From contig NZ_JALIQP010000001.1 in the NCBI RefSeq assembly GCF_023566055.1, positions 642,059-706,058 on the forward strand: a stretch of DNA of 64,000 nt, written 5' to 3'. Source of the stretch: Halosolutus amylolyticus. GTDB taxonomy: Archaea > Halobacteriota > Halobacteria > Halobacteriales > Natrialbaceae. Positions 12,523 to 33,053 of the stretch are shown here, piece by piece (the first letter of the stretch is position 1; the number at the start of each line of letters is the position of its first letter). The notes below the pieces were generated by a model, which saw only the letters and a program-made list of their open reading frames with translations, was not told the origin of the DNA and searched no databases. Position numbers and translations under genes: made by a program.

Positions 12523-12667
12523 GCTTCTATTCTTGATGCGGAGTGACTTTATCTCTTCTGCGGCTAACACATGAGAGGCCAGGTATTGACGGTAAGCAAA
12601 TCTGAGAGGGAGCGACTTCCTGATTACTGGAAAACTTCGCGTTTCTGCGCGGAGAGGACGTCAAGCC

Positions 12668-15355: not shown

Positions 15356-15463
15356 ATTATTGTTCCGGAGGTGTTTGTCTAACTTCTCTAAATGGGGTAC
15401 GGTACACTAGTTATACTGGTTTTTTCTCAAGGGGTAATTCTATCGTTTTCTGGGCTTAGACCC

Positions 15464-15493
15464 GATTCCGGAGTGGAATTCCCCTCCGGAATC
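15464..15493. repeat. 30-bp nearly perfect palindrome
   Basis: GATTCCGGAG (15464-15473) is perfectly repeated in inverse as CTCCGGAATC (15484-15493), and the ten bases between contain their own palindrome GGAATTCC. Fourteen of fifteen pairs match across the whole 30 bases. It lies 110 bases after the 414-residue gene, so it could end that transcript, form a cruciform, or be a protein-binding site. No run of T follows it. Confidence 0.6.
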
Positions 15494-15530
15494 AAATCAG
15501 CGAGAATTGCCTATGATAGAATAGAGATAA

Positions 15531-15968
15531 ATTGAATTCCACAATGCGTTATGCGAAATCGATAGGCAGGACGGCGGAGCGGTGCAATTGAATATCACTA
15601 TGATCTCTTCGAAAGTCACAACCGGCAGTTAGCAATCGTGCTCGTATCCACGCGGAAAAATACGACGCTAAATTAATGAATAATAGGGTGGTCTATTGAT
15701 ATTGACAATGAAATCTTCGAAACCGCTAGCTACCTCCATCAATTGAAATCCACAATGGAGAATTCGAATTCAATAGCTGTCGCTACAATCGTGCACGAGA
15801 CTGGTTCCTACGAACTCTATGACATCAACCATCCGAAATCTCGGTGATAGTACCGCTGGCTACTACTTCCGGAGGTTCCGTATCAGTGACTACGTTGTTC
15901 CACCGGTGAATTGCTGGAGATAACCCCAATTGATCGACGCAACGAAATCTTCGAAATCAATAGCATGC
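15531..15968 (+). repeat. Five degenerate direct repeats of about 40 bp in a gene-free interval
   Basis: Copies start at 15531, 15587, 15695, 15742 and 15929. Each opens with ATTGA, has (C/G)AC(A/T)ATG or similar ten bases on, then TCTTCGAAA or a variant. Copies 1 and 4 share ATTGAATTCCACAATG and ATTGAAATCCACAATG; copies 3 and 5 share AAATCTTCGAAA and TAGC. Spacing is irregular (56, 108, 47, 187). All copies can be read in one register as I-(E/D)-x-x-N-x-x-F/C-E, which hints that they derive from a repeated coding segment now broken by stops. The rest of 15356-16076 shows no gene. Confidence 0.45.
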
Positions 15969-16076
15969 ACTCTATTCGGCGCTGAATCCGTAAGATTCTG
16001 GAACTCAGGGAAATAGATCCGAACTCCTCTCAGGGCAGAGTTTTAAATACACCCCGATCAGAAAAAGTGTGAACCG

Positions 16077-16445
16077 ATGACAAAACCAACTCAAGCGACA
16101 GACGACTCTCATACAGGGTCCGTCCGTTCCGTACGCGATCTCCCACCCTGGAATGGACCCTTCGTACTTAGTCAAAACATCAAGATCGGAGAACAATTTA
16201 TAGTGGAAGCCCTCTACCGCGATCCAGATCCAACCCCACCTGAACTACACGATCCGGAAATAAATTGGGAGGCAGTCAACATCATCATCGAGACCGAAAC
16301 GAGTGAGATCCCTGCAATCATGATGACAGGCTACGTCCGGTACCCACTCCGTTTCGAACCCGGTGATAAAATCGAGCAAATGAAAGTCGAATGGACTGGT
16401 CGTCGTTGGAAAAAGCGGTTCGAAAAGACAGCAGGACGGAGGTAG
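16077..16445 (+). CDS. Uncharacterised haloarchaeal island protein
   Basis: A 122-residue protein. After a polar N-terminus it contains an extended beta-rich region (KIGEQFIVEALYRDPDP, NIIIETETSEIPAIMMTGYVRYPLRF) and a basic C-terminal tail (GRRWKKRFEKTAGRR) that could contact nucleic acid. No family is recognised. It lies ten bases ahead of the next gene, so the two are probably one operon. It is the first gene after the repeat-rich gap and precedes the recombinase module. Confidence 0.6.
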   Translation: MTKPTQATDDSHTGSVRSVRDLPPWNGPFVLSQNIKIGEQFIVEALYRDPDPTPPELHDPEINWEAVNIIIETETSEIPAIMMTGYVRYPLRFEPGDKIEQMKVEWTGRRWKKRFEKTAGRR

Positions 16446-16454
16446 TGTACAGTC

Positions 16455-16742
16455 ATGTCCACACATGTAGACGTGTCCATCAAGGAAGACGAAAAATCAG
16501 TGGATGAGTTCTGGAAAGCCGGAGAGCGAGTGGATGACTCACGGGAGGTCGAGAAGTCCCTGGATGAGTTACGGACAGCCAAAATCACTCGAACAGAGGA
16601 ACAGGGGGTCATTGGTGTCCCTGTCTTCTTTACACTAGAACATCTCGAACGCCAGGGCATTGACCCTACCGAAACCGACCACATCGTCGTTCGAATCGAG
16701 AAGGGCTTCATTCTCTTTGAACCGCTTGATAGAGACGACTGA
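16455..16742 (+). CDS. Small protein with an AbrB/MazE-like C-terminal segment
   Basis: A 95-residue protein. The N-terminal 45 residues are acidic and helical. The C-terminal half reads GVPVFFTLEHLERQGIDP, then HIVVRIEKGFILFEPL, a swapped-hairpin layout that recalls SpoVT/AbrB or MazE DNA-binding domains (IP..L...G...GD.V.......I...). If correct it is a transcription regulator or antitoxin of the operon 16077-16742. The match is weak and based on pattern only. No toxin gene is evident beside it. Confidence 0.55.
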   Translation: MSTHVDVSIKEDEKSVDEFWKAGERVDDSREVEKSLDELRTAKITRTEEQGVIGVPVFFTLEHLERQGIDPTETDHIVVRIEKGFILFEPLDRDD

Positions 16743-16810
16743 CGATGGCGGGGTAACTTTCCAAGCGTTTAATATAGTGACCAATAGCGAGTGTGGTGAC
16801 CATCCGTTCC

Positions 16811-17260
16811 ATGCCCGGGAACAGTAGCCAAACGCAGCCAACGATGACGTACCCTACCAAGGAGCAACACGCCCGTTGGAAAGAGGAAGCCAAGCAGATG
16901 GACATGTCGCTTTCGGGGTTCATCCAAGCGATGACGGAAGCTGGGCTGAAGAAGTTCGATGTTGATGTCGAACCGGATGAGTCAGTTAGTGAGTTGCGCC
17001 GCCAGCGAAACGATTTGAAGCACGAATTAGATCGCACTCGGGATCGGGTTGCGAAATTAGAACACCAGTTACAGACGCGAGAACGGGAGGCGATCAAGGC
17101 ATTCGTTCAGGAGAATCCCGGCGTAGAACTCGGTGACATCATCCAGGAAATGATTGAAACGACATCTGACCGAGTCCCAAAACAAGTTGAAGGACTGGTG
17201 ACTGTTGGAGAACTCCAGTATGAAGACGGAGAGTACTATTTCAATGACGAAATCAAGTGA
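16811..17260 (+). CDS. DNA-binding-like coiled-coil protein upstream of the recombinase
   Basis: A 149-residue protein from ATG 16811; a GTG at 16793 is also in frame, but a TATA-like TTTAATATAG at 16768-16777 puts the likely transcript start near 16798. TMTYPTKEQHARWKEEAKQMDMSLSGFIQAMTEAGLKK looks like a ribbon-helix-helix or short helix-turn-helix segment. A coiled coil follows (ELRRQRNDLKHELDRTRDRV), then a small winged-helix-like end. It overlaps the next gene by 17 bases and heads a three-gene operon ending in the tyrosine recombinase, so it probably controls or assists recombination. Confidence 0.65.
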   Translation: MPGNSSQTQPTMTYPTKEQHARWKEEAKQMDMSLSGFIQAMTEAGLKKFDVDVEPDESVSELRRQRNDLKHELDRTRDRVAKLEHQLQTREREAIKAFVQENPGVELGDIIQEMIETTSDRVPKQVEGLVTVGELQYEDGEYYFNDEIK

Positions 17261-17699
17261 TCCCCTCCACCGTATCGGCGTGTACAAGACGCTTGAGCAG
17301 GTGCCGGATCATTCTCGTCTGTACAATTCTGCGACAGCCTTCGAGGGACGAGATGTGTGGGCGGAGTACGTTGAGCATGAACTCTCGAATCCTGCACAGA
17401 CTGTTCAGTACGAGACGGAACTCGTTGAGGAGTCGTGGAAAGAGCATATGCGTCAGCGCGGTCGTCATCCAGCGCTTGCCCGTCCTGACGATGTCGAGTC
17501 GTGGTTTACTGGCTTAATCGATAGGATGCAGACGAAGCGAGCGTACAATCCGTACTGGGTACGGTTAGAGGATTTCTACACGTATCTGCTGTGGCATACT
17601 GAGTACCCGCATTCGCACCATCCGCCTCGAATGGCGGCCGTACAAGGTGGTGTGACACGCGAGGTCTGGGAATACAAAGTTAGTGAGTGGTCAATATGA
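17244..17699 (+). CDS. Stand-alone core-binding-domain-like protein paired with the recombinase
   Basis: A 151-residue protein from ATG 17244, which overlaps the upstream gene. Its middle reads HMRQRGRHPALARPDDVESWF, very like VTQQGRHPACANPTLVNGF in the N-terminal domain of the recombinase encoded next door, and the following helices fit a SAM-like core-binding fold. It lacks any catalytic recombinase domain. So it seems to be a duplicated or split-off core-binding domain, perhaps an accessory that competes for core sites or sets directionality. Its stop overlaps the recombinase start (ATGA at 17696). Confidence 0.6.
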   Translation: MTKSSDPLHRIGVYKTLEQVPDHSRLYNSATAFEGRDVWAEYVEHELSNPAQTVQYETELVEESWKEHMRQRGRHPALARPDDVESWFTGLIDRMQTKRAYNPYWVRLEDFYTYLLWHTEYPHSHHPPRMAAVQGGVTREVWEYKVSEWSI

Positions 17700-18814
17700 G
17701 CAAAGAAAAACAATCGGTAGACGATCAGCGAGAACGGATCGGGGAAGAGTTCAATCGATCAGTAGACCCGTTGAAGCAGTACGATGAGAGTTTCGTCCAG
17801 ATGCAGGAAGACGGTGTTGAGCCGTTTGAGATGTTTCTCGATGATGTTGTTCGGGACAGCAATCGAAGGGACAGTACTGTTGACGAATACGAACGATCGA
17901 TACGGCATTTCAAAGAGTATGTGACGCAGCAAGGACGACACCCGGCGTGCGCGAACCCCACGCTCGTTAACGGATTCGCAGAGTACGAATTCCAACAACG
18001 AGACAACGGGAAGGAAACGGTCAAAACGAAACTCAACTACGTCAATAAGGCGTACAAGTACTTTCAAAACGAGAACGTATTCCCGCACACAGAGGAGTAC
18101 AACCCTGTGGATAACGCCTGGGAGAAAATCACGTGGCCAGAAGAGGAGGAGAAGGATTACCCAAAGGTCACGCGAGAAGAAATGCGTGAAGTGTTAGCTG
18201 ACATCACGCACGTGTTTAAACTCGCGGTGATACTGATGGGACTCAAATTGGGGATGCGACAGGGAGAAATCCGGAACGTGAAGTTAGAAGATATTCACAT
18301 CGAGAACGCGGAGTTGCAAGACCATTACCCTGAATTAGGAAGTCACCATCGTCTCGCCGGTCAGAAAAACGCGATCTTCATCCCTACAAAATACCATCGA
18401 CCGGGGAACAAGTCGCGGTACCCCCGAATCCTGCCGCTCGACGAGGAGATGCGTAGCGTGCTGACGCAATACTTGCTGATCCGCCCTGACTGCGGTGAAC
18501 CGTGGGTGTTTCTCTCACAGACACATCACGACCGAATCAAAGATAAAGACGGGATCAACAGGCACTGGAAAGAACAGGTCCGTTCACACATCTCGGCTGA
18601 AGCGTACGAGAAGGAACTAACGAGCCACTTCGGCCGGCACTGGTTCTCCACGTTTTGGAAGATGGAGAATCCGATCGAAAAGGAATACGTCCAGTACATG
18701 CGTGGGGACAAGATCGGTGACGGCCGGGAAGGTGAACCGATTGACGAGTACCTTCACGGGTACTATTCGGATATCGAAGACCAGTACCGGAACGAAATCT
18801 ATAAACTGCTATAG
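17696..18814 (+). CDS. Tyrosine recombinase / integrase
   Basis: A 372-residue protein from ATG 17696. An N-terminal SAM-like core-binding domain (about 45-140) precedes a catalytic domain with LKLGMRQGEIRN (Arg188), SHFGRHWF (His311-x-x-Arg314, His315) and EYLHGYYSDIE with the candidate nucleophile at Tyr356 or Tyr357. The set R...HxxR...Y is complete. It would catalyse strand exchange for integration or excision of the island. The gene ends a three-gene operon. No tRNA or clear attachment site flanks it, so the site it acts on is not identified; an XerC-like role in an element's dimer resolution is an alternative. Confidence 0.85.
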   Translation: MSKEKQSVDDQRERIGEEFNRSVDPLKQYDESFVQMQEDGVEPFEMFLDDVVRDSNRRDSTVDEYERSIRHFKEYVTQQGRHPACANPTLVNGFAEYEFQQRDNGKETVKTKLNYVNKAYKYFQNENVFPHTEEYNPVDNAWEKITWPEEEEKDYPKVTREEMREVLADITHVFKLAVILMGLKLGMRQGEIRNVKLEDIHIENAELQDHYPELGSHHRLAGQKNAIFIPTKYHRPGNKSRYPRILPLDEEMRSVLTQYLLIRPDCGEPWVFLSQTHHDRIKDKDGINRHWKEQVRSHISAEAYEKELTSHFGRHWFSTFWKMENPIEKEYVQYMRGDKIGDGREGEPIDEYLHGYYSDIEDQYRNEIYKLL

Positions 18815-18986
18815 TTTAGGTGCCATAGAACGGCTCTTATACCTACTATGCAGGCATCGTGATTCGATAAGTACAGGAGAACAAGTTATCGCGTATTGAC
18901 GCCAATATTGGCCACAAACGAGATCCATACAGATGAATAACCAGCTTTTTGGTCCAAAACTCAGGTTTCAATACGGCTGATGGACC

Positions 18987-21074
18987 TTACGCGACCTCTG
19001 TCTCATAATCTCCAATGTAGTCCTTTACCGACTGTGGCGGAAAGAGGACCCCTTCAGCTGCCTCTCGCAACCTTTCGTGGATGAACCAGTGAGGATCTCT
19101 ACGTGTAGCAATCGAGCGGGATTCGTTTAACTTATCGACACTACGAGACAGGCATTCTTTCGCCTCCTGTCTTCGAGATGTTTTCTCGACACCGTCGTCA
19201 GTTTGGTCAACTGTAGCTATATGCAACAACCCGTTGATGATAGACCGGTAGGCCGCGAGTTCTATACGGGCAATACTTCGAATACGCTCCAGCAATTCCT
19301 CGTTCTGTTGAAGGCCCTCTGCTCGAATAGATAAGAGCCTGAGCGCGTCTTCATACTCTCCTTTCGCAACTGGAATTGCAGTCAGAGCCAATATTTCGTG
19401 GACGACTGCATCCATCCATCGTTCTGGTTCCTCCTCGATGTCAATTCTCTCTACAATAGAGGTGAAGGTCAGGAGAGCCTCATGAAACTCACCCCGCTGC
19501 ATTTGTTCGTTCCCTATCTCAAACGCTTCCTCAACAGAACCAGCGGATTCTGGAACGACATACCTCTCAAACGATGTCTCTACGAATCCCTCCTCAAATC
19601 CGATCGGCCGCGCTTCAATAGTGACACCTGGTACATAGCGGGCCCCACGAACCCGAATAGGTACCCCGTTCGATTGTATGAAGAGACCTTCAGAGGTCCA
19701 CTCTTGGCTTGAAGATGAAATGGTTTCTTCGGAGCCAAACACCCCCAATTTGCTCAGTTCTTCTGCGGAAACCTGAACGGCATCTGAATTGATCTTGGTG
19801 ACCGGTAAACAAATCCGTATTTCGTCATCAAGCGGGATTTCAGGGAGTACAACCGGAATATGGCTATATTCTTCGATGATACCCTCACAAACAGTAACGA
19901 ATTCCTGTTCAGAGGGTCGCCTGGATTCGTCTAACGCTTTCAGCGTTCCGGTGACGTATTCTTCGCAGCTCTCCGTGATTGCTACCGAGATTTTGTCTGG
20001 TACTGTACTGGTATCTCGGGGTACCGTCACTAGGGTACCGTCCTTTGAACCGACGAGTAGATTCTGTCCTATCTTACTAACTTCTATGTCTACGCGGTCA
20101 CCAACAGCAAGTTGACTTTCATCTCGCGGTCGCCGTGGTGTCGCAATTGCAACGTTTCCGTATACGGATTCAATCGCTACGTTCACCCATTGGTTTGCTG
20201 CGACAAGTTCGCTGTCGATAATGATTGTCCACTCGCCGTGATATGCGACTCCGAGACCGTGGCCGGCAAACGCAACAAATACCTCTATTTCTGAATCGTG
20301 CAGGTTGTGGTTGTATTGCCGCGACTCGATATTCAATATCTTCTGGAGGCCTGTCAATCCTGTAAGATTTTCCAACTTCTCGATATAGTTCCGGGCGTCT
20401 GACCGGTACCCCGAACTCCAAACTTGGGGGGTCAAACACATTGTCCAGTGCCCCCTGTATTCCACGCCAACTGTCCATTCGCCAACGACCGCCTTTGGGA
20501 GGCTACCCAGATTTATCTCCTTGCCTGCTGCACTGTCTAGAATTGCGTTGCCGTTGTTGCTCAATCTGTCCACTCGACCGAGATGGAACGGATCTGGAAG
20601 TAGAGTTCGACCATCGGACGTATCTCGGATGTTACGAGCCTCTGGTTTGAGGAGTGGCTGGGGGATGTCCACTTCATTCTCCGCCTGAGATGATCCTGGG
20701 AGTTCCCTGTCTAATCCTTCGCGGAGACCACCGATGAACGATGGGTGAGCTTCGACATATGACCGAAGTTCATCTAGCTCCTCCTCTGAGACGGATGGTG
20801 ACTCGTAGTATTTCTGCCCGGGCGGTTTTCCAAGTTCTAGGTCATCCTGTGATGAGGATTCAAAGTAGAGATCGCCCAGAAGCCGAAGTGGTCGACAGAG
20901 CTGGTGGGGAATCGTAGCTTCATCACCTGGTGATGGAACTGAGTATCCCAACTTATCAAAGAAAGACCGTGCCCGAGGTGTAACCTGATATGTACTCGGC
21001 CTCGGATGCTTGGGGTGGGGTTTCCAGCGAACAATAAGTCCCTTGTCTGTAGTCTTATTGCGAAGGGTTGGCAT
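18987..21074 (-). CDS. Large multidomain protein of unknown function
   Basis: A 695-residue protein. The N-terminus (GLIVRWKPHPKHPRPSTY, then VTPRARSFFDKLGY) may be a winged helix. The middle is beta-rich and includes two segments that look like small beta barrels (WVNVAIESVYGNVAIATPRR; LAVGDRVDIEVSKIGQNLLV), reminiscent of TRAM or OB folds. The C-terminal 190 residues are helical and TPR-like (AFEIGNEQMQRGEFHEALLT). I do not recognise the family. It is convergent with the recombinase and divergent from the helicase at 21343, so it may be element-borne defence or replication cargo. Confidence 0.7.
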   Translation of the reverse strand: MPTLRNKTTDKGLIVRWKPHPKHPRPSTYQVTPRARSFFDKLGYSVPSPGDEATIPHQLCRPLRLLGDLYFESSSQDDLELGKPPGQKYYESPSVSEEELDELRSYVEAHPSFIGGLREGLDRELPGSSQAENEVDIPQPLLKPEARNIRDTSDGRTLLPDPFHLGRVDRLSNNGNAILDSAAGKEINLGSLPKAVVGEWTVGVEYRGHWTMCLTPQVWSSGYRSDARNYIEKLENLTGLTGLQKILNIESRQYNHNLHDSEIEVFVAFAGHGLGVAYHGEWTIIIDSELVAANQWVNVAIESVYGNVAIATPRRPRDESQLAVGDRVDIEVSKIGQNLLVGSKDGTLVTVPRDTSTVPDKISVAITESCEEYVTGTLKALDESRRPSEQEFVTVCEGIIEEYSHIPVVLPEIPLDDEIRICLPVTKINSDAVQVSAEELSKLGVFGSEETISSSSQEWTSEGLFIQSNGVPIRVRGARYVPGVTIEARPIGFEEGFVETSFERYVVPESAGSVEEAFEIGNEQMQRGEFHEALLTFTSIVERIDIEEEPERWMDAVVHEILALTAIPVAKGEYEDALRLLSIRAEGLQQNEELLERIRSIARIELAAYRSIINGLLHIATVDQTDDGVEKTSRRQEAKECLSRSVDKLNESRSIATRRDPHWFIHERLREAAEGVLFPPQSVKDYIGDYETEVA

Positions 21075-21342
21075 AGAGATCTAATGCTCAGACGGAATTA
21101 TGAGATTACCGGTATTTCTCCCCTTCTTTGTTGTATCTAACTGTGATCAGTGACACAAACCGAGGAACAGCCACCCAATTACGCTGTTAGGCCGGATCGC
21201 TATTCGGGAGCAAGGTTGGTGATTCACCTGTGTTCAACTCTTTTTGCTAGAAGAGCAGAGGAACACAGACGGCGATCTCGCCGAGACCAGTCAGTGAGTG
21301 GAAACGGTTTTTAGTCTATCGCGCTGCACATACTACTATCCC

Positions 21343-23745
21343 GTGTCTGAGACCTCTGAGGTAAATTGGGAGACCTATTTCGGCTTTAGCGACCCGTACG
21401 AAAATCAAAACGACGTCATCGAGAATATCATCGACACAGCCCAGGACTCTGGATACCTGGCAATGGAAGGCCCGTGCGGAACGGGGAAAACGATGGCCTC
21501 GCTTACTGCAGCCAGCTATCTCATCCGAGAGACCGACCAGTTCAACAACGCTATCGTCGTCACCCCGGTGAAACAACAGCGCCAACAATTCGTCGAGGAT
21601 CTCCGAGTCATCAACAGCCAGTTAGAGGAACCGCTTGCCGGCGTCGCACTCGTCGGAAAACGAGATCTGTGTCCGTACGGACGCGAAGACGTGTTCCCTG
21701 ACGGGAGCAGCGTTCAGGAACGATGTGATGACCTTAGAGAGGCAACTGCTGACCTCGTTAGCGAAGACAGCAACCTCAAAGTCCAACAGCAATTCGAAAC
21801 GGACGCGACGCCGGACTCATCACCGATTCCTGAGGAAGAGAAATGGTGGGATCCAGCGAAAGGCCGGGTACTCGTTGAGAACGCGCAACGAGACCCGATG
21901 GACGAGGATGCTGCACCACTCCATACCGCTGGCAAGACTGCGCCGTACGCTCGAACACAACCATCGACGACCCCGGAAATGACGGAATCAGGGAACCGCC
22001 AACTGTACTGCCCGTTCGAGGCGGACTGGTACGGCCGTGACAAAGGCTCCCCGGTAACGTTCGAATCAGGGGACAACCACGTTGTCACGACCGAGGAACT
22101 CCTTCCGAATGCCGTCGAAATCGGGACTTGCCCTCACCGCGCGATGACCGTGCTCATGAAGAACGCGGACATCGTGGTCGGAAATTACAACCATCTCTTC
22201 GACAACGCTAGCCGCCATCTCACCGCCCCAATACTCGATGAGCAGACGCTCGTCATCATCGACGAGGCCCACCGGATGGAGGAACGCGTCCGAGACCTTC
22301 TCACGGACACGATCGGGTATTACACAGTCAAACGCGCCAAGAACGATCTTGAACAGGTTCTTCGGCCGGCGCGTCAAGGACCACAAAACAAACGCGAAAT
22401 CAAGGCGCGGCTTGCGGCACATGACGTCCCGTTCGAGGCCGTCGAAACTGCTGAGGCGTTCTACGACGACGTGATGGAGTGGTTCGAGACTCAGGTAGAC
22501 GACGAGCTCCGGGACCAATTTGAGCAGTATGGAACTGGCTTGTCGTGGAACTCGCTACCGGACAATGATATCGAGGTACCGCTCCGGGATCCAGATGAAC
22601 CTGAACCGGACGAGTTCACGCGCTGGGCCGAACAGGCAGGGTACGGTGGAGACACGTTCCGGATGCTAAGCAAGGTCGGACTCGCCGTCGAACAAGCATT
22701 AGAGCAAGAAGACATCGACCGGGACTGCGTCTGCACCGCTATCGGAGCGCTGTTCGGGCAGTGGTGGGAACGCGACCACGTCGACTACTTCAGAGAAATC
22801 GAATTGGAGTATTCGAAGAAGGACGATCGAGACGTCGAAAAGCCGTGGATGAATTACTACAACGCGTCGCTCGTCATGTACAACTGCATGCCGTCGGAGA
22901 AAATCAAGGAAATACTTGACGAGTTCGGCGGCGGCGTCCTCATGAGCGCGACTCTCGAACCGCTCTCGATCTTTGAGGAAGTAACCGGCTTAGAAGAGTT
23001 GGCGACTGATGATGAGGAACCGCGAATCGTCTCCTCACGCACGTACGATTTGACATTCCCCGAGGAAAACCGCGCCAGCTGGATCGTCGACGTCGAAGCG
23101 TTCAAAAAGCGAAACCGAGGCGAACCCGCGCTTGAAAATAAAAACAGTACACGAGAGCGCTACGCCTACGTCGCACGAGAAATCGCACGCAGCCATGGAA
23201 ACATCCTTCTTGCGTGGCCAAACTATTCCGAAGCCGAATGGGCGGCGAACCGCCTTCGAGAGGAGATTGAGAAACCAGTCCTGCTTGACCAGTCATCGAG
23301 TCACGAGGAGACTAGGGAACTGAAACGCGAATTCGTTCGTGGCGAGCCGAAAGTTCTCGTAACGAGTACTCGCGGCACGTTAACTGAAGGCGTCGATTAC
23401 GAAGGTGATGAGCTGCACACGTGCGCTGTGTTTGGTATCCCGTTGGTGAATATCGGTTCACCCAGAGTCCGAGCCGTCCAATACGCGTACGGTGACCGAT
23501 TCGGAACAGAGAACTCCTTCACGTACGCACTGACGATCCCCGCAGTCCGACAAATTCGCCAAGCATTTGGACGAGTCATTCGTGGACCGGACGAACGCGG
23601 TGTGCGAATTGTCGTCGGGAAGCGATTCGTTCCTGATGCTCTACACTCTGTTTACGAGTATTTCCCAGAGAATGAGCGGGAAGAGTTTGTGCGGATGAAA
23701 CCTGATTTCCTGGCCTCACTGTTTAGGGATTTCTGGGAGAACTGA
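21343..23745 (+). CDS. XPD/DinG-type (Rad3-like) DNA helicase, island copy
   Basis: An 800-residue superfamily 2 helicase from GTG 21343; another GTG at 21298 adds 15 residues. Numbered from 21298, Walker A is GPCGTGKT (58-65) and the DEAH box is IIDEAHRM (Asp322). Four cysteines in between (CPYG, CDDL, CPFE, CPHR) match the iron-sulphur cluster domain of XPD/DinG. Motifs GGGVLMSATLEP and TSTRGTLTEGVDYEG mark the second motor domain, and RQAFGRVIRGPDERG is motif VI. It unwinds DNA 5'-3'. It is a full-length paralogue of the truncated chromosomal gene at 31491-33053. Confidence 0.9.
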   Translation: MSETSEVNWETYFGFSDPYENQNDVIENIIDTAQDSGYLAMEGPCGTGKTMASLTAASYLIRETDQFNNAIVVTPVKQQRQQFVEDLRVINSQLEEPLAGVALVGKRDLCPYGREDVFPDGSSVQERCDDLREATADLVSEDSNLKVQQQFETDATPDSSPIPEEEKWWDPAKGRVLVENAQRDPMDEDAAPLHTAGKTAPYARTQPSTTPEMTESGNRQLYCPFEADWYGRDKGSPVTFESGDNHVVTTEELLPNAVEIGTCPHRAMTVLMKNADIVVGNYNHLFDNASRHLTAPILDEQTLVIIDEAHRMEERVRDLLTDTIGYYTVKRAKNDLEQVLRPARQGPQNKREIKARLAAHDVPFEAVETAEAFYDDVMEWFETQVDDELRDQFEQYGTGLSWNSLPDNDIEVPLRDPDEPEPDEFTRWAEQAGYGGDTFRMLSKVGLAVEQALEQEDIDRDCVCTAIGALFGQWWERDHVDYFREIELEYSKKDDRDVEKPWMNYYNASLVMYNCMPSEKIKEILDEFGGGVLMSATLEPLSIFEEVTGLEELATDDEEPRIVSSRTYDLTFPEENRASWIVDVEAFKKRNRGEPALENKNSTRERYAYVAREIARSHGNILLAWPNYSEAEWAANRLREEIEKPVLLDQSSSHEETRELKREFVRGEPKVLVTSTRGTLTEGVDYEGDELHTCAVFGIPLVNIGSPRVRAVQYAYGDRFGTENSFTYALTIPAVRQIRQAFGRVIRGPDERGVRIVVGKRFVPDALHSVYEYFPENEREEFVRMKPDFLASLFRDFWEN

Positions 23746-23863
23746 ACGGGTCTCAATTCGATCCTAGACATTACTCTCGACGGTGCTAGACCCGTGTGTC
23801 CAGATCAACTGGTGACTCAGTCCTGTACCGAGATAATGTGTCCTAAAACTATAACGACTACTA

Positions 23864-23967
23864 GTATCGGGATATCGTACCATCCGAGAGTACCACGTCA
23901 GCAAACCATAGCACTGTACCACGATACAGTACCACATTTCTGTACCACGTCTATGCTCCACGAACCA
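23864..23967. repeat. 13-bp phased repeat array (iteron-like)
   Basis: GTACCA(C/T) recurs at exact 13-base steps: GTACCATC at 23877, GTACCACG at 23890, a weaker AAACCATA at 23903, then GTACCACG at 23916, GTACCACA at 23929 and GTACCACG at 23942, with decayed flanking units at 23864 and 23955. The array lies in the 298-base interval between the helicase gene and the convergent zinc-ribbon gene; nothing else is visible there. Directly repeated protein-sized sites at a fixed period resemble replication iterons or a partition site. Confidence 0.65.
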
Positions 23968-24043
23968 GGTACACAGTTGTGTTCCGTGAATGAATTCGGG
24001 AGCGATGAACCCGATCTCTTATACACAGAAAATAACTGGGGAG

Positions 24044-24586
24044 CTACGATGCAGGGTCGGAGAGTCCTTGCTCTTCGTCGTCTGGTTCTACTGTTATTGA
24101 AACGTCGATATCATCGGAAGGATTGAGTCCCTCTGCGAATGTAGCCCCCATTCTAATACTCAATTCAAGTCCTGCTGGTTGGAACGCTTCATAGAAGAAT
24201 GCTGCAATCCGCGCCCAGAGAATAAAATCTTCCATAGCCTCATCTGTGGGGTTTTCCTCGAACATCTCTTCCTGAAAGAAGAGCCCAGGGATAGGTTCCT
24301 TATCAAACCAGTTCCACCGCTGGAGGATTGCGAGATCGGTGAGTGCCTCCTTCACACCTTCTTCGAGATACCACTGGTAGGCCTCTGTTGGGGGTTCTTG
24401 TTCGCCATTCATAGAATCAAGAATCGACTGGACATCAAACCCGTCTAAGAAACCACTCCACTCATCTTGCGCTAATTTTCTAATCTCCGCTTCACTCGGA
24501 TCATCGAGAATGGGGAACCCACAGTTCCCGCAGTAATTCGCTTCTGGCATCGAGAGGTCGTCTCGACAGCGGATACACGTTCCCAT
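24044..24586 (-). CDS. Zinc-ribbon protein of unknown function
   Basis: A 180-residue protein from ATG 24586 (MGTCIRCRDDLSM); a longer in-frame start at 24649 adds a hydrophobic stretch that seems to be promoter sequence. Two CxxC pairs, CIRC (4-7) and CGNC (about 19-22), form an N-terminal zinc ribbon. The rest is acidic and mostly helical (WSGFLDGFDVQSILDSM; DFILWARIAAFFYEAF) without recognised motifs. It converges on the 13-bp repeat array and is divergent from the giant ATPase gene at 24694. A nucleic-acid or protein-binding role is likely but unspecified. Confidence 0.7.
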   Translation of the reverse strand: MGTCIRCRDDLSMPEANYCGNCGFPILDDPSEAEIRKLAQDEWSGFLDGFDVQSILDSMNGEQEPPTEAYQWYLEEGVKEALTDLAILQRWNWFDKEPIPGLFFQEEMFEENPTDEAMEDFILWARIAAFFYEAFQPAGLELSIRMGATFAEGLNPSDDIDVSITVEPDDEEQGLSDPAS

Positions 24587-24693
24587 ACCGGTTCTTAACC
24601 GATATAGGGCATAAATTAAGACCCCAAGCTCCAATAGTGGCAATTCCATGACTATTGCTGAACTACATAACCATAGCGTAGGAAGAGGAGTTC

Positions 24694-27600
24694 ATGGCTG
24701 ATCCGGTTCCCTATCGCACAGTTGGCGCAGTCCCAACTGATCTCGACACAATTGCGGATGTCTTCCAGAACCACTACTCATATTATCAATCCCTCGACGG
24801 GGAAGTCGCTCACCAGCAGCAGACTGGTGAAACCCAGATCCGCCGCGAATACTCCGGCCGAGTGGTATTCGAACTGCTACAAAATGCGCTCGATCGTGCC
24901 GATGAAACCGTTGTAGTCCGGCTCGCAGAATCTTCGCGTGATGACGGTGCTTACGAGTTACTCGTAGCGAACGATGGCGATGGTATCCGTGTTGACCCAT
25001 CGTACGACTATGAGAATCCGCCTGACGCCGGCGGATCTGATCGCCGTCGTCCGGATTTCAACGCACTCTGTTCGCTGCACACGTCGAACAAATCCCCGGA
25101 CGAAAGCATTGGCACCAAAGGTATCGGATTCCGCTCTGTCTTCGCCCTTGGAACGCATGTTCGTGTCTGGAGTAACCTCGACACCACGTCAGACTCTGCG
25201 TGGTGGGGGCTGGAAATGCACTCACCGCTTGACCAAACCACGTGGATCAATCGCAGCGAGACGCCCGCTGTCGATCGAGGCCAGGACCGGTTCCTCAATG
25301 GCACGGTACCGCGTCTCGATGACGCAGAACCACGGCCGAGCTACCACTTCCCACTTCCGCTCTACACCGACACCCAACCAGAACCGGTCGAGAATGCCAA
25401 GGAACTTTCGACGGCTATCGTCGTCCCAATCCCTGAAGCACAGTACTCGACGCTGCGTGATCGCGTCGCGGAATTCAAGTCCCACCACCTGCACTTCGTT
25501 GGTCTTGACCCTGACCGACGTGATATCACCGTTTCTTTTGAAACGCCGAGCGACGACCCACCGTCATTTCAGCGTACTACCTGGCCCTCGACAGTCACCT
25601 CCGAAATCACCCCGCAACGGCGCACAATCGCCGCGTACACCTCCTCAGCATTAGCTGGCGATGCCGAGAAAGCCGATCACGACGTCAAAGAACCAGGAGC
25701 TGCGATCGCCTGGCCTCCAACCCCGACGCGTGGTGGCGACGGCACTGGCAGCGACAACGACACGTCAGCCAGTATCTACGGATACCTCCCGACGTTGATC
25801 GACGCCCCGTTTGGTGTTGATATTCACGGTGACTTCCAACTCAGCATCGACCGGACAAACATCAGGCTTGACGACGACCAAATGGGGCCATACAATCGGA
25901 AGCTCCTAGAAATCGCTGCCGAGCTGCACCTCCTCCGAGTAATCCGAACCGTCGATGCTGATCTAGAACACGCCATCGAATGGACATGGATCCAGCCCTC
26001 TACAGTCACCGAAACCACCCCTGCAGCGACGAGCCAGCAGCGTCGTGACTTTTGGCAGTTTCTCAACCCAACCCAAGGTGACTCCGACGCCGCCGCACAC
26101 GTCATTAGCCATCTCAAAACCCTGCTGTTCCCTGGTGGAAGCAAAGACACCGAAACGTACACCCATTGGGCAACCCTTGCGGACGCCTATTTCGAAGCCC
26201 AAGACGAGTGGCCGATCGAAACGTTCGAACAGTTCTGGGCCGCTTCGATAGCCTGGATCGACCAGCTTTGCTCGACAAAATACCGGCGAAAAAACTGGCG
26301 TCGAACCGCGCTCGCCCTCTGTAACGCCCTCCGCGAACACCACGCTACCGTCGCCCCAGTCATCCTCACCAACGAGTCGAATGAAACAGACAGCTCAACG
26401 GCAGTGTCAGCTGTGCCGCTTCCAGACCGCGCTGACAGCGATCACCCTACCGGACACCAACAGCGTCATGACCGGAAACTGTTCCTACAAAGCACCGATG
26501 CCTCAAGTCTCACCCTTCCGACGGCACTGACAGCCGACGACCGCGCCGTCACCACGTTCGATTTCGCGTCCGATCTGTACTCCCAGTCCCCAAATGCACT
26601 CAACACCACCCCGTTCAACCGATGGGAAGTCCTCCGAGAACTCCGACAACTTCCGAACGCCTCCGTCGCAAACTGGTCCGGATCGCCACTCGCAGGAACT
26701 ACTGACGAAGCCGTCGCCCGCCAGCAAGAACTCATCTCATTCGCCGCAGAGCTCTATCTCCTCGACACCGGGACTAGCCACGACACCCCCACCAGCCTCA
26801 CCCAGAACGGCCCTGGCTGGCGTGCACTCCCAGCCCCAAGCGACGCCGCCCGTCGCGCCGGCCGTGCCATCGCAACACTGTACCTCCCAACAACAGACGA
26901 GAAATGGGCACCCGCCCGTCAACTTACCCAAGCCGACGTTGATGAGGATCGTCTCGGTGAACTCCCGGAGGAACTCTCATTAGACGATTTCCTCACGTTC
27001 CTCGGCGTTGCCCCCGCACCACCTCATGAAGACGCACCTGCAATCACACTTGTTGAAGGCGGTTCCGAAAACGGCGTTGTCCCTCGTAGAGACGCACCAC
27101 CGGCACTCACCGCCCCCGGGCCCGGGACAAGGGACCTCACGCTCGGCGAACTCCCTCTGGACCACAGCACCGACACACCGGAGTCGTGGTACGATGCGAT
27201 CACGGCAGCCGAGCCGTGGCTACAACCGCTGTTGGACGCCGAACACGACGCAACTCAGACCGGCGAGGAAAACGCTGAAGACGATGACGTCATTCCGGAT
27301 CGAATCGATCTGTTAGACCCACTCGGCGAACGGGCATGGTACCCGGTAGATGACACTACCCGCGTCTACGCGTCCCCACCAGCAACCACCGAGAACGTAA
27401 CCGGAGTCCCACCGCGAGACCTGACGTTGCTATCCGCCTACCAACCCTATCTCGCTGAACTACTGTGGTCCGTCGATCAAGCCGCAGTCAACGACGAACT
27501 ATTGATTACGCTCGGTGCTATCGATGGCACGGCACGCGAAGACCTCGCTGCTGCAAACGCAGCCCCAGCTGTCCGACTGTTAACGCAACTCCGTACGCAC

Positions 27601-29754
27601 ACTGATCCAACTGCGTTCGCCGATACACCGAGTATCCGCGATGCGTACACGAGCCTCTTCGAACGAATCCTCGACGCAATCGTTCGGAATGGTCCTTCCC
27701 AGCCCACCAGTGACGACCTTGCAGTTCTAACGTACCGACCGGCCGGTGAACAACGGGCACTCTCGACACGCCGACTCGAATGGCGGTCCCTTGACGACCT
27801 TGCTGCAGACCCAGCCTGGGTCGCCGCCTCCCCCGCCGATCAAGAAACTATGCGGCGATGCTTCCCGGACGAACGCCTCGTTAGCGCCACCATAGGCCCG
27901 GAACTCCTCGATGACTATCAACCGCTGTCTGACTACGGCGTCACCATCGAGCAAACCGTGCAATTCGACGCCTTTGACGAACCGGACCACGATCCTGACG
28001 TCGCCGGTGAAGACGTGGCGTCGACGATCGCCGATGAACTCGCCGAAATCGTGCCGAGTCTATTAGCACTCGCCGACGCCGATCAACACCTTACTGTCAA
28101 TCTCACCGACGACGTTGAACAATGGAGCCCCAACATATTCACCCCGGTCGCCAACGTCTGGCTCGAATATACCGCGACCTTCGGCACCGAAACCACCCGA
28201 ACCACGACGAAACACAAAAACGACGACGGAATCGCCCTGCTCAACGCTGATTCCGCTAATGGTGAAGAACCAGTGACAAGACGCATCATTTTCGACGTAA
28301 CCAGTGACGGCAGCCGCCCACCGTTGGCCGCGTTCGGCCGACCGTTGGCCGAGCTCCTGCTTGAGGACCACCACTCGCAGGCCGCCTCACTCTTCGAACG
28401 CGCACTCCAAACCTACGAAACTGATCCCGAAGACCTCGACCAACTCCTTGACCGCCGTGACGCGACACCACTCGTTGAAACATACGAACACCGAATCAAC
28501 CCCCTCGACACCGACCAACGAGATGTGCTGCTCACCAAAACCGAGCAGGCACTCAACACGTTCAACATCGAACTCCAGACTACTGCTGTCACACGCCTCC
28601 GAACACTCACCCCTGCAGACCTCCAACCGACGCCAGAAACCCCACGGGATTTGTCTGAGGCAACAATCAACGAAGAATTCGGTCAAATCGAGCTATCCAC
28701 CCAACAAGAACCATTCCGACCCGCGGTCCACTGTCGAACGGAGAACCAGCGCCGCTGGAACGAGTGGTTTGACACGTACCAGGAACACCTCGTTCCATAC
28801 CTCCTTGACCTCCTCCAGTCTACCGTCTTGGAAGACATTGAGGAAGACACCCTCACCGACCGACTCCACGAGTATATCACAACGACAGAACTTCAGCAGC
28901 TGCAGTTCCACCCTGACGCAGCTGTCCAGCACTGGCTCACCAAGGAAGGTGTCCCTGACGCTGACATCCCTGATGACCTTATTGAGGAAGCCCGTCAGTT
29001 CATCCCGGAGTACAAACGTGTCACAACCGTAACGAACGCAACTGATATCGATAGTAGCTGGTCACGTCATTCTCTCTCCGACCCGGAACCCTCCATGCGG
29101 GAAACAGGGACCGTTGATCAATCCGACGTGTTCGACCGTATGCGGAGCCAGAAAACCGTCGGGACGAACGCCGAACACGCCGCCCTCGAAACCATCACTG
29201 AACAAACGCACAACATTCTCGACGAGACTCGTGACCAATCCACGGTCGAAACGATTCACGGCCCCGTACAGGACGCATGGGATGTCCTGTACTGGCCCAT
29301 CCCGGACGGCGGCGTCACTGCCAGTAACCTCACCTCCGCACAACAAACCTATGAAGAAACCCGGAACCGCGACGATCTCAAAGCAGGGCTGCACCTTGCC
29401 AACGTCTGGGACGGCGCTGGCTACGACCTTCTCGGCCTCGAACGCGACTCAGAAAACCGCGTCCAACCAGTCCGATACGAAATCAAAGCAATCTCCGCAA
29501 CTCGCCCAGTCGTCGGCCTACACCTGACGAGCAAGCAACTCGCCGTCTACGAAACCGTCCGTGATGACGAGAACGACGATCTAAGATATGCTGGTGACTG
29601 GCAACTCTGGGGCGTTGAAGACGACGGCACCGCGACTGAATTCACCGACACCCTGGACGAACTCCCCAACGACGCCCTTGACAAACTTCGGACCGAAGGC
29701 TTCGAACACGACGGTCTTATCCTCCGTGTCACCCGCACCGAACCCACGGATTGA
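24694..29754 (+). CDS. Giant sacsin-type GHKL ATPase with C-terminal nuclease-like domain
   Basis: A 1686-residue protein. The N-terminus has a GHKL ATP site: FELLQNALDRAD (Glu60, Asn64), NDGDGI (93-98) and SIGTKGIGFRSVF (138-150), as in sacsin and related bacterial defence proteins. The C-terminus has GYDLLGLE and YEIKA (Asp1578, Glu1596, Lys1598), a DUF3883-like PD-(D/E)xK arrangement. About 1400 residues between are acidic alpha/beta sequence I do not recognise. Combination of a Hsp90-type ATPase with a nuclease fold suggests an ATP-gated anti-invader enzyme. Coding strand is rich in C and A, unlike the HRAMP-like operon, so it probably came from a separate source. Confidence 0.8.
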   Translation: MADPVPYRTVGAVPTDLDTIADVFQNHYSYYQSLDGEVAHQQQTGETQIRREYSGRVVFELLQNALDRADETVVVRLAESSRDDGAYELLVANDGDGIRVDPSYDYENPPDAGGSDRRRPDFNALCSLHTSNKSPDESIGTKGIGFRSVFALGTHVRVWSNLDTTSDSAWWGLEMHSPLDQTTWINRSETPAVDRGQDRFLNGTVPRLDDAEPRPSYHFPLPLYTDTQPEPVENAKELSTAIVVPIPEAQYSTLRDRVAEFKSHHLHFVGLDPDRRDITVSFETPSDDPPSFQRTTWPSTVTSEITPQRRTIAAYTSSALAGDAEKADHDVKEPGAAIAWPPTPTRGGDGTGSDNDTSASIYGYLPTLIDAPFGVDIHGDFQLSIDRTNIRLDDDQMGPYNRKLLEIAAELHLLRVIRTVDADLEHAIEWTWIQPSTVTETTPAATSQQRRDFWQFLNPTQGDSDAAAHVISHLKTLLFPGGSKDTETYTHWATLADAYFEAQDEWPIETFEQFWAASIAWIDQLCSTKYRRKNWRRTALALCNALREHHATVAPVILTNESNETDSSTAVSAVPLPDRADSDHPTGHQQRHDRKLFLQSTDASSLTLPTALTADDRAVTTFDFASDLYSQSPNALNTTPFNRWEVLRELRQLPNASVANWSGSPLAGTTDEAVARQQELISFAAELYLLDTGTSHDTPTSLTQNGPGWRALPAPSDAARRAGRAIATLYLPTTDEKWAPARQLTQADVDEDRLGELPEELSLDDFLTFLGVAPAPPHEDAPAITLVEGGSENGVVPRRDAPPALTAPGPGTRDLTLGELPLDHSTDTPESWYDAITAAEPWLQPLLDAEHDATQTGEENAEDDDVIPDRIDLLDPLGERAWYPVDDTTRVYASPPATTENVTGVPPRDLTLLSAYQPYLAELLWSVDQAAVNDELLITLGAIDGTAREDLAAANAAPAVRLLTQLRTHTDPTAFADTPSIRDAYTSLFERILDAIVRNGPSQPTSDDLAVLTYRPAGEQRALSTRRLEWRSLDDLAADPAWVAASPADQETMRRCFPDERLVSATIGPELLDDYQPLSDYGVTIEQTVQFDAFDEPDHDPDVAGEDVASTIADELAEIVPSLLALADADQHLTVNLTDDVEQWSPNIFTPVANVWLEYTATFGTETTRTTTKHKNDDGIALLNADSANGEEPVTRRIIFDVTSDGSRPPLAAFGRPLAELLLEDHHSQAASLFERALQTYETDPEDLDQLLDRRDATPLVETYEHRINPLDTDQRDVLLTKTEQALNTFNIELQTTAVTRLRTLTPADLQPTPETPRDLSEATINEEFGQIELSTQQEPFRPAVHCRTENQRRWNEWFDTYQEHLVPYLLDLLQSTVLEDIEEDTLTDRLHEYITTTELQQLQFHPDAAVQHWLTKEGVPDADIPDDLIEEARQFIPEYKRVTTVTNATDIDSSWSRHSLSDPEPSMRETGTVDQSDVFDRMRSQKTVGTNAEHAALETITEQTHNILDETRDQSTVETIHGPVQDAWDVLYWPIPDGGVTASNLTSAQQTYEETRNRDDLKAGLHLANVWDGAGYDLLGLERDSENRVQPVRYEIKAISATRPVVGLHLTSKQLAVYETVRDDENDDLRYAGDWQLWGVEDDGTATEFTDTLDELPNDALDKLRTEGFEHDGLILRVTRTEPTD

Positions 29755-29912
29755 CGAGGCAGTTACCAGGCAATCCCTATTGATTCGCCATGAAGATGGC
29801 TGATTAACCGAAAATCACCGACTACGCATAGAATTTACAGAACAGTTTCTGGACAGAGTATATGGTGCCCAGTGGAGTTATTATGTAATAGAAACATATC
29901 TGAGTTGACTTC

Positions 29913-30515
29913 ATGGGTGACCACTCAACGCAACCATCGGCTGGGGAGGGAAAGGAAACAGTCGCGGACATGATGCAGCATTTAGATGCGGCGAAGGAAT
30001 TAGATCGATCAACCCTTGATCGCAATCAACGCCAGCCCAAGACAAAACTACAGCGTGAATTCACGAGCCGCACTGATGTCGCGGTGTTAGCGAAAAATTA
30101 TGAGACGCGGTTAGAAGAGACTGTGGAGTTTGAAGCGGTCACCCATCGGTCGAATAGTGTCTGGAAGACAGTTGCTATGGGTGTTGAGGCCCACGGCCGA
30201 CTTCCTCTCTATTATCGATTAGGAGAGATGGTCGCATACAAAGGATACATTACAGATGTCATAATCGAGCCAGACCCGACATCTGAAAAAGCGGAGAAAT
30301 TCATAGACTACGTAACTGAAGACGACACCTTTGCAGAGTCAAATGACATCCTCGGAAAGATGGCATATATTGTCCGAGGTGGAGAACGCATTGAGGAACC
30401 GTTCCCGCAGACAGAACTGGTGAAAGTAACCAACGATGAGAATATCGCCGAGGGTTATCGATACCAGCCAGCGCACGTCTACCAACGTGATGGCGATTTT
30501 CCTGACTTTCCGTAG
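29913..30515 (+). CDS. Uncharacterised island protein
   Basis: A 200-residue protein. The first 60 residues are polar and basic (DRSTLDRNQRQPKTKLQREF). The rest is a compact alpha/beta domain with a hydrophobic strand-helix core (LPLYYRLGEMVAYKGYITDV) and a terminal YRYQPAHVYQRDGDFPDF. I do not recognise it and see no catalytic motif. It is a single gene with a likely promoter in the AT-rich 150 bases ahead of it. It follows the giant ATPase gene on the same strand after 158 bases, so co-function is possible. Confidence 0.6.
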   Translation: MGDHSTQPSAGEGKETVADMMQHLDAAKELDRSTLDRNQRQPKTKLQREFTSRTDVAVLAKNYETRLEETVEFEAVTHRSNSVWKTVAMGVEAHGRLPLYYRLGEMVAYKGYITDVIIEPDPTSEKAEKFIDYVTEDDTFAESNDILGKMAYIVRGGERIEEPFPQTELVKVTNDENIAEGYRYQPAHVYQRDGDFPDFP

Positions 30516-30676
30516 CAGTAGATAGTAGCGCGTTTTCTTTATTCAGTCTCTCGCCTAAATCTGAAACTGCCAGATCGTGTCGGGGTATCTCCGTTGCTTG
30601 TTACGCATCTATAGTCTGCTCTACCCGATCAACAATCCGCTTCTCAAGATATAATATTTATTAGGATAAGTAGTGT

Positions 30677-31114
30677 TTATGAGCTAGCACTTCTATACAT
30701 CACATCAATATCTTCATCAGAAGTGTCCAATTCATTTACTATTTCCTCCATAACTTCCTTGTCGCCTTCGAATTCAACGGGTATAGGCCCTTCATCGTAA
30801 GATATCCCAGTTAATTCTTTTTCTATCAATTCGGCAGCCATCTCACATCCAGTTGTTTTTACAGGCCTTTCCGAAATTTCACAATCATATGCTTCCAGAC
30901 TTGCCCCTTCTTCAAAAATACGTCCTACTAAAACAGCGTCACCTGCATTAATGGAAACAATTGGGATATGAATTACACGTGGGCGTCTCATCCCTGAGCC
31001 CCAGCTAGCGGGATCTGGACCTACGTGCGCAACTGTTTGCTGGTCAGAATCGAGTTGCTCATGTAAAGTCATCATGATCGCGGGTGAAATTTCTGTGTAT
31101 TTCTCCATACTCAC
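30677..31114 (-). CDS. Uncharacterised small acidic island protein
   Basis: A 145-residue protein (an alternative ATG at 31108 removes two residues). It alternates strands and helices (RVIHIPIVSINAGDAVLVGRIF; IEKELTGISYDEGPIPVEFEG) and ends acidic. No family or motif is recognised. AT-rich codon use sets it apart from the GC-rich chromosome that begins 380 bases to the right. It is the last gene of the island before the truncated helicase and has no close partner. Confidence 0.6.
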   Translation of the reverse strand: MSMEKYTEISPAIMMTLHEQLDSDQQTVAHVGPDPASWGSGMRRPRVIHIPIVSINAGDAVLVGRIFEEGASLEAYDCEISERPVKTTGCEMAAELIEKELTGISYDEGPIPVEFEGDKEVMEEIVNELDTSDEDIDVMYRSASS

Positions 31115-31490
31115 TATCCATCTTGTTTGACCAAATAGTTCACACGCACATAGAAGATTTTACACTTTTGCTACAGGGATTGTCTAGTTCACCATCTCCG
31201 CGACAGACGTCCAACCATATAGTAATCAGAGTGGTCAATCAACTACCTGTACTGAACGCGAATTTCACGGCGTCCACTGGATAAAGAAATCGCACTACCA
31301 ACTACTTATAGTAGTGAACTGGTCGGACACTCACTGAAGAGAGTGCTCAATAGGACTCACCTGCCCTTGGAAAGGTAATAGTGTACAAGATAGACCCGCA
31401 GAAGGCAACGGGTTCGAAGTACTGTGACAGAGCTTGAAATCTGGTTCTGTATTGAAAGTCCAGTTAGCTACTAGTAGATCAGAGTCACGC
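31115..31490. other. Right junction of the accessory island
   Basis: This 376-base stretch holds no gene. It has the low-GC texture of the island up to about 31485, where sequence changes abruptly to GC-rich helicase coding sequence at TACCACGCGTTCG (from 31491). ACTACTTATAGTAGT at 31300-31314 is a near-perfect palindrome. No tRNA end, IS end or obvious direct repeat of another in-window site was found, so the attachment mechanism is undetermined. Confidence 0.6.
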
Positions 31491-33053
31491 TACCACGCGT
31501 TCGATCCGACCACGACCACGGCGTTTACCGGCGCGTTGCTCGACGACTCGACGTTCGTCGTCTGCGACGAGGCCCACATGCTCGAACCGCGCGTGCGCGA
31601 CCTCGTCAGCGACGGGGTCGCCGACGCCACGCTTCGAGACGCCGAGACCGAACTCTCGCGGGTCATCCAGCCGATCAGGTTCGAACGTGAGGGTCGCCGG
31701 GCCGAGGGCGGGTCGAAGACCGCCAACGCGGACCTCGTCCGGGCGGAACTGAACGACAGCGACGTCTCGTACGACGAACTCGAGCGCACCCTCGAGTTCG
31801 TCCGGGACCTCCGGGCCGAACTCGATCGGCGGGTGACGGCCTATCTGGATCGACACTATCGCGGCTGGGAGTCGGACCTCACCGACCTTGACGACGAGGA
31901 GATCCCGCTCCGCGACCCGGGAGAACCCGCGGAAGACGAGATCACGGAGTGGGCGCGCGGAGCCGGCTACGGCGACGTCGACTGGGTCCGCGTCGAGGCC
32001 GTCGGGGCCGTCGTCGCGCGGATCCTGAACGAGGCCGAAGACGAGGAGCGCACCCGCGCCGCGCCGACCGTCGGCCGCGTCCTCGGCGAGTGGTACCGCT
32101 GCGGTCACACCGATTACTTCCGGGAGATCGACCTCGAACGCACGTGGGACGAGACCGAACCGCCGGACTCGTGGCGGCGGGCCTACACCGCCAGGCTCGC
32201 CCTGCACAACTGCGTCCCCAGCGACGCGATCGGCGATCGACTCGGCCAGTTCGGCGGCGGGATCCTGATGAGCGCGACGCTCGAACCGATCGAGGCCTTC
32301 ACCGAGGTGACGGGACTCCAGTACCTCGCGAGCGAGGAGGACAGGCCGGTCGTCGAACGCCGCTACGGCCTGCACTTCCCCGCAGAAAACCGCGAGAGCT
32401 TCGCCGTCGCCGCGCCAAAATTCACCTACGACAATCGCGGCAGTCCGGAGGAGACGAACCCGACCCGAACCCACTACGCCGACGCCATCGCGAAGGTCGC
32501 TCGCGTCCCCGGGAACGTCCTCGTCGGGATGCCCAGCTACGCGGAGGCGGAGTGGGCCGCAGGCGTGCTCGAGGACCGCGTCGACAAACCCGTCCTCCTC
32601 GACGCCGCCAGCGACGACGAGACGACCCAGTCGCTCAAGGCCGAATTCTTCGCCGGCGACGGCAAGGTGCTCGTGACCAGCCTCCGGGGAACCCTGACGG
32701 AGGGTGTCGACTACAGCGGCGATCGACTCGCGGCCGCGGTCGTCTGCGGCGTCCCGATCGTCAACACCTCGAGCCCCCGAACGAAGGCCGTCCGCCGGGC
32801 CTACGACGACGAGTTCGGCGACGGATTCGTCTACGCGCTGACGATCCCCGCAGTACGAAAAGCGCGCCAGGCGATCGGACGAGTCATCCGATCGCCGGAG
32901 GACGTGGGCGTCCGGGTCCTGCTCGACGAGCGCTACGCCCGCGATAGCTGGGACTCCGTTCGACCCTATCTCCCCGACGACGGCGAGTTCCAGGCCGTGA
33001 GTCCCGACATGCTCGAGCACGGCCTCGATCGATTCCGATCGCGACGCTCCTGA
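31491..33053 (+). pseudogene. 5'-truncated chromosomal XPD/DinG-type helicase
   Basis: From 31491 the frame reads YHAFDPTTTTAFTGALLDD and then CDEAHMLEPRVRDL, matching the island helicase from about its residue 297 to the end: GGGILMSATLEP, TSLRGTLTEGVDYSG and RQAIGRVIRSPEDVG correspond motif for motif. Missing are about 300 residues with Walker A and most of the iron-sulphur ligands, so the product cannot be a helicase. An ATG at 31434 keeps the frame open but its first 19 codons are island sequence. GC content and codon use match the core chromosome, so this is the resident gene cut by island arrival, not a copy brought in. Confidence 0.8.

Follow-up and report, generated by a model that had tools for sequence, protein, structure and literature searches.

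Why should a genomic island that interrupts a helicase gene carry a complete helicase gene of its own? The question is raised by a 64,000-nucleotide stretch of Halosolutus amylolyticus (contig NZ_JALIQP010000001.1, positions 642,059 to 706,058; hereafter the window, meaning this whole stretch), which corresponds to C1:642059-706058 of its own genome, G000 (4.59 Mb, 9 contigs). An earlier reading made from the letters of the window (the sequence-only reading) had placed the right border of the island within an XPD/DinG-type helicase gene, and had suggested that the element may use this gene as its landing site and bring a replacement. The borders were compared with those of relatives, and the helicases were searched for in a family sample of 125 genomes (Natronorubrum halalkaliphilum, Natrialbaceae, among its members) and an order-wide sample of 392 genomes. 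These comparisons make it probable, and we hold it with good confidence, that an integrative element lands in the resident helicase gene and brings a complete helicase of an alternative type as its substitute.

The split resident gene and the borders of the element

The following features are given in window positions, or in C1 positions where they lie outside the window (lengths in amino acids, aa; att, attachment site).

21343..23745, strand +: full-length helicase of the other type, borne on the element, 800 aa (alternative start at 21298, 815 aa)
1..31489, no strand: rightmost 31.5 kb of the element, whose full length is 76,544 bp; the remainder is C1:597011-642058
31469..31488, strand -: right arm GTGACTCTGATCTACTAGTA, inverted counterpart of the left arm (C1:597012-597031)
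31490..31496, strand +: attR core CTACCAC, second copy of a 7-bp direct repeat (first copy C1:597004-597010, outside the window)
31490..33053, strand +: resident XPD/DinG-type helicase gene, 3' part beginning at about codon 284, with DEAH and the C-terminal helicase domain
C1:596192-597013, outside the window: resident helicase gene, 5' part, adjoining the island at its other end
17687..18814, strand +: tyrosine recombinase, likely the integrase, with 85% DNA identity to the copy in family genome G136

The cut in the helicase gene at the right border was confirmed, with the exact border at 31490-31496. The missing 5' part, to be looked for left of the island, was found there by a search of the G000 genome: C1:596192-597013 aligns to residues 4-285 of the island protein, and the gene at the right border aligns to that protein from residue 284 onward only, with 45% identity. 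The split falls at residues 282-284 in the 800-aa numbering; the truncation had been read correctly, but the start given for the remnant, residue 297 of the island copy, fits the 815-aa numbering. In the island-free relatives of the same genus, G001 and G002, the locus holds one uninterrupted gene (frames of 877 and 904 aa, 93% and 90% identity), and the flanks match both island borders.

By comparison with these uninterrupted genes, both junctions were placed in the same 7 bases, the left reading AACTACTACCAC-TGTGACTCGGATCTACTAGTA and the right TACTAGTAGATCAGAGTCACG-CTACCACGCGTTCGA. The element measures 76,544 bp from core to core (C1:597004 to C1:673548), and the core site is uninterrupted in the relative locus L043. 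The 20-bp arms, which lie inside the element beside the cores, are inverted copies of each other (GTGACTCNGATCTACTAGTA). Guanine-plus-cytosine content is mostly 0.43-0.62 inside the island and about 0.66-0.71 across window positions 32000-46000. A core repeat with inverted flanking arms is the anatomy expected of a tyrosine-recombinase site; judged by its anatomy, this precise insertion, with identical core repeats and an empty site in relatives, is a tyrosine-recombinase integrative element. A further copy of the left arm, degenerate and with 3 mismatches, lies inside the element at L040:9204-9241 (C1:599203). The related insertions in G136 and G080 lack, at their left ends, the 2.2 kb from the left border to this copy, as though the end of the element had gained a second unit.

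On one side of the insertion lie Walker A (residues 43-50) and the invariant cysteines 110, 128, 223 and 263, and on the other lies DEAH (307); the four cysteines we take to hold an iron-sulphur (Fe-S) cluster, as in the XPD/DinG family. With Walker A and the Fe-S region parted from DEAH, neither half is expected to work as a helicase. An intact resident helicase elsewhere, the observation that the sequence-only reading had named as counting against it, was not found when the G000 genome was searched with the island protein; the other matches were a 739-aa paralogue and a further Helicase_C_2 gene. The island copy is, as predicted, a full-length paralogue of 800 residues, with Helicase_C_2 and DEAD_2 domains (XPD/DinG-type) and with Walker A, four conserved cysteines, DEAH and the C-terminal motifs all intact. 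The resident gene was also seen in halves at contig ends in G117 (L106, L115) and as two frames in G139 (L110, frame change), in both genomes without att arms and without a second copy; these two genes are broken or misassembled.

Two helicase types and the attachment core

The island protein was used as query in the family sample at E<=1e-100, with up to 8 candidates scored per genome, and in the order sample at E<=1e-110, with the two best candidates scored per genome. Of the 125 family genomes, 124 had the helicase family, and only three of these (G000, G136 and G131) gave a second match; 359/392 order genomes had a match, 7 of them twice. The helicase is near-universal and normally single-copy. 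Identity between the resident and island types was 41-50% (mean 45%), and in a tree of 38 proteins, chosen by us and built by a quick method, the element copies and genes from other genera together made up a clade of 10 with full support. Seven further genomes with a high-scoring island-type gene were tested (G175, G177, G317, G276, G346, G048 and G272), and all lacked the resident-type gene; G032/G151, a 53%-complete bin, had one copy only. Across haloarchaea the two types exclude each other.

In two genera the island type occupies the locus that holds the resident type in a sister species. In G177 the genes that follow the island-type gene are those found after the resident-type gene of the same-genus G058, and in G175 the island-type gene is preceded by neighbours found in G040; one 3' neighbour is common to G317 and G040. 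Judged by these neighbours, one type seems to have replaced the other on at least two occasions. Such an apparent exchange at the native locus suggests that both types do the same job, and the two look interchangeable. Full-length relatives of the island helicase were found in 3 of 72,556 plasmid records, at 36-38% identity, and in 0 phages and 0 viral contigs.

The types differ at the attachment core. The resident type encodes GNYYHAFD; of 58 loci examined, 55 could be read, and CTACCAC was present in 54 of these (6 genomes entered the count twice). The island type encodes GNYNHLFD or GNYNHVFD, with the core in 0/32 loci; every island-type gene read differs in at least one core base because tyrosine is replaced by asparagine. 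A crossover sequence shared by both helicase copies had been anticipated: the 7-bp core and inverted arms do occur at both halves of the resident-type gene, but the island copy is without the core. A mismatch in the crossover region blocks recombination in the tyrosine-recombinase class, and since the island type lacks the core, the replacement helicase is probably immune to the integrase.

Recurrence of the site, proposed mechanism and rival explanations

The arm pattern (<=2 mismatches) was found in 4 of the 125 family genomes, namely G000, G080, G136 and G087, and a control pattern read backwards gave 0 matches in the tabulated results. G000, G136 and G080, which belong to three genera, have two arm sites each, one against the 5' piece and one against the 3' piece of the resident helicase gene, with identical core, orientation and junction design; G087 has a single arm site, with 2 mismatches, in unrelated flanking sequence. 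The integration site in this helicase gene recurs. In G136 the split gene and element parts lie on contigs C60, C63, C4 and C33, and the left-end genes, integrase, helicase, a 201-aa gene, TmtA and a 200-aa right-end gene are common with G000. The 57 kb at C1:602628-659629 of G000 are replaced in G136 by about 1.3 kb with an insertion sequence (IS) transposase, and the G136 element measures about 23 kb if its contigs abut as in G000. The integrase is common to G000 and G136 only, the next best match among the 392 order genomes being 46%. G080 is a metagenome bin, 77% complete. Just inside its left arm, the first bases match the beginning of the left-end gene region common to G000 and G136; the integrase was not found in this incomplete bin. 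The island helicase is present in two of the three integrants (G000 and G136).

A wider att search (core plus arm, <=2 mismatches) matched 30 of the 392 order genomes, G000 and G136 included. The search yielded no locus for 10 of the 30, G000 and G136 among them. Of the 20 loci read, a single conserved chromosomal gene with an FRYHCDS motif accounts for 17, and 3 (L199, L201, L206) lie elsewhere; the 20 were taken as chance matches. Viral contigs had no arm pattern and no helicase match.

The element helicases of G000 and G136 share 97% protein and 94.8% DNA identity, and the hosts' resident halves 82%; being far more alike than those halves, they indicate horizontal spread of the element between genera. 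Codon changes (silent/replacement) were 19/2 in the left half of G000 (sister 14/6) and 42/6 in its right half (sister 37/15), and in G136 34/8 in the left half (sister 22/6) and 8/0 (sister 12/2) and 42/10 (sister 41/12) in the right pieces. No stop codons were found in the split-gene halves of either genome.

In the mechanism that we propose, the attachment site would be the conserved stretch of the resident XPD/DinG-like gene whose codons specify GNYYHAFD, where the tyrosine recombinase of the element probably recombines its arm-flanked 7-bp core, CTACCAC, with the same core in the gene. The insertion splits the gene between Walker A/Fe-S and DEAH, and neither half is predicted to function; the complete alternative-type helicase on the element would then stand in for the resident one, and probably repairs the damage done by insertion. 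This replacement (GNYNHLFD codons), being without the core, would not itself be a landing site. The suggestion of a landing site and a replacement gains support from the use of the same base in three genera, and from the element's helicase type replacing the resident type elsewhere. Integrase activity, excision, functional replacement, immunity and the cost of gene loss are what we infer from the genomes compared. A more far-reaching version, possible and put forward tentatively, is a one-way allele swap, in which the integrase destroys the CTACCAC-bearing helicase and the element supplies the only type that the integrase cannot read, owing to its conserved Y-to-N codon. Host fitness would then depend on the element, superinfection at the site would be blocked, and the replacement could become the sole helicase, as at native loci elsewhere.

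Several observations weigh against substitution. No strong match to the helicase was obtained in 33 of the 392 order genomes, and in G177/G058 and G175/G040 collinearity is confined to one side of the gene. In G080 no island-type helicase was found, incomplete as that bin is, and beyond the arm its terminal 130 bp on the right have no match in the other elements. There are three integrants only, two with the helicase, and these are so alike that they may represent one acquisition. The split halves show no relaxed selection and no sign of decay; either the insertion is recent or reversible, or the halves are still of use.

Three other explanations were weighed. The island is full of defence-type genes, its helicase adjoins a TmtA-like gene, and the PADLOC type IV DinG model (PDLC01439, typeIV_DinG) matches that helicase (window 21343-23745), as would suit a coincidence in which the resident gene is targeted and the element's helicase is mere cargo for defence or DNA processing, with no compensating role. 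We consider this unlikely, since an ordinary chromosomal gene is matched just as well by the same model (3.7e-100), TmtA in G015 is unaccompanied by the helicase, plasmids hold almost no full-length relatives and phages and viral contigs none, and elsewhere the island type is the lone chromosomal gene at the resident locus. The intact cores and arms at both ends, and the undamaged halves without relaxed selection, would also be expected of a reversible switch (active lysogeny), in which conditional excision restores the resident gene, as with SpyCI in mutL, and the switch rather than replacement is the point. The element brings its own helicase, however, so the integrated state need not be null, and the contigs searched contained no excised form; a switch of this kind seems highly improbable, and it is compatible with substitution rather than exclusive of it.

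Hardly any weight is given to a targeted transposon with 20-bp terminal inverted repeats and a 7-bp target duplication in place of an integrase element. The ends are indeed inverted repeats and the core a short direct repeat, but the same base, core and orientation occur in three genera, a tyrosine recombinase is common to the G000 and G136 elements, and the only transposase noted lies in the inner IS of G136. Substitution of the split resident helicase by the element-borne type is the reading that we prefer.

Other element genes and comparison with known systems

Three further genes lie to the right of the island helicase.

24044..24649, strand -: 201-aa protein, between the helicase and TmtA, also in G136
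24694..29754, strand +: TmtA-like protein, 1686 aa, cargo, also in the G136 element
29913..30515, strand +: 200-aa protein at the right end, also in G136 (95.5%)

A TmtA-like gene with 89% DNA identity occurs in G015 (L250:5184-10238) without an island-type helicase beside it, which weakens the candidate reading of helicase and TmtA as one defence system. Between integrase and helicase, a 695-aa protein (window 18987-21074) had no Pfam or PADLOC family match, and no match in the G136 contigs read. For family annotation, 48 proteins were selected from the 64 open reading frames called in the island. Defence-type genes include those for a HerA-like ATPase, NurA, proteins like Mre11 and Rad50, an EVE-bearing McrB-like protein, GmrSD, PglX/PglZ/BrxC-like proteins, a HEC-06-like protein, TmtA and others. 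The HerA/NurA/Mre11/Rad50-like and bacteriophage exclusion (BREX)-like PglX/PglZ/BrxC clusters occupy L041:2388-10236, L042:1-12572 and window 1-513, and both the HerA/NurA and the BREX-like clusters lie in the 57-kb block absent from the G136 contigs. For these 48 proteins, no capsid or portal family and single terminase-like matches were seen among 25 of 46 PHROG families listed, and no DDE transposase among 25 of 41 families listed.

Window 1191-5288 holds a G-rich operon with repeat-associated mysterious protein (RAMP)-like proteins, weak Cmr3/Cas7 matches, an RNase H-like protein and no array of clustered regularly interspaced short palindromic repeats (CRISPR); it is possibly an unusual type III/IV-like effector. 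A type IV CRISPR system made up of the island helicase and these RAMP-like genes was considered and rejected: PDLC01439 also matches the resident gene, the helicase scored 38.1 bits against Csf4 TIGR03117 (curated cut-off 400), and no array-like repeats were seen in window 1-31600. As the PADLOC model matches the ordinary haloarchaeal chromosomal helicase, it would mislabel genomes.

A literature search of open-licence PubMed Central (PMC) papers found no archaeal or helicase counterpart, and within that literature this is apparently the first archaeal mobile element that destroys a near-universal gene and brings a substitute. A substitute without the target sequence suggests how such elements may become addictive to hosts and drive core-gene replacement. 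With an exact att core and arms, a smaller relative of ~23 kb and two seemingly interchangeable types, the system is directly testable in genetically tractable haloarchaea.

Like the present element, SpyCI islands reportedly insert site-specifically into a DNA-repair gene, streptococcal mutL; unlike it, they lie at the 5' end of the gene and give a mutator phenotype, and they are not known to bring a replacement. Archaeal integrated elements are described with short att repeats, tyrosine recombinases and protein-gene targets, and the 14 thaumarchaeal integrations in those descriptions lie in 3'-distal parts of genes, whereas here the gene is cut in the middle (PMC6563490; PMC8371274). The homeoalleles and homeocassettes of Halorubrum resemble the two helicase types in being mutually exclusive, strongly divergent gene versions at equivalent haloarchaeal positions, but the passages that describe them draw no link to an integrase by which one version would be disrupted and the other brought in (PMC11078007).

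The closest precedent is the tmk islands of Pseudomonas, and the G000 island would work like them. As presented in the relevant passages, a 65-kb island splits a conserved gene mid-way and carries a dNMP (deoxynucleoside monophosphate) kinase, PP_1964; the function is essential and complementation was shown by experiment (PMC10653934). Both systems combine a large island in a split conserved gene with a divergent, complete gene for the same activity (seen here in two of the three integrants), and a conserved, recombinase-containing backbone with variable cargo in several genera (PMC10653934). Some Pseudomonas strains have the replacement only, in place of the original gene (PMC10653934), and a replacement at the native locus was likewise found in G177/G058 and G175/G040, with one side collinear. 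The tmk case concerns a bacterial nucleotide kinase and is genetically proven (PMC10653934), whereas the present one concerns an archaeal DNA helicase known from sequence alone. Here, in turn, the replacement is a homologue of the same family, the core and arms are mapped in three genera, and the replacement is without the core.

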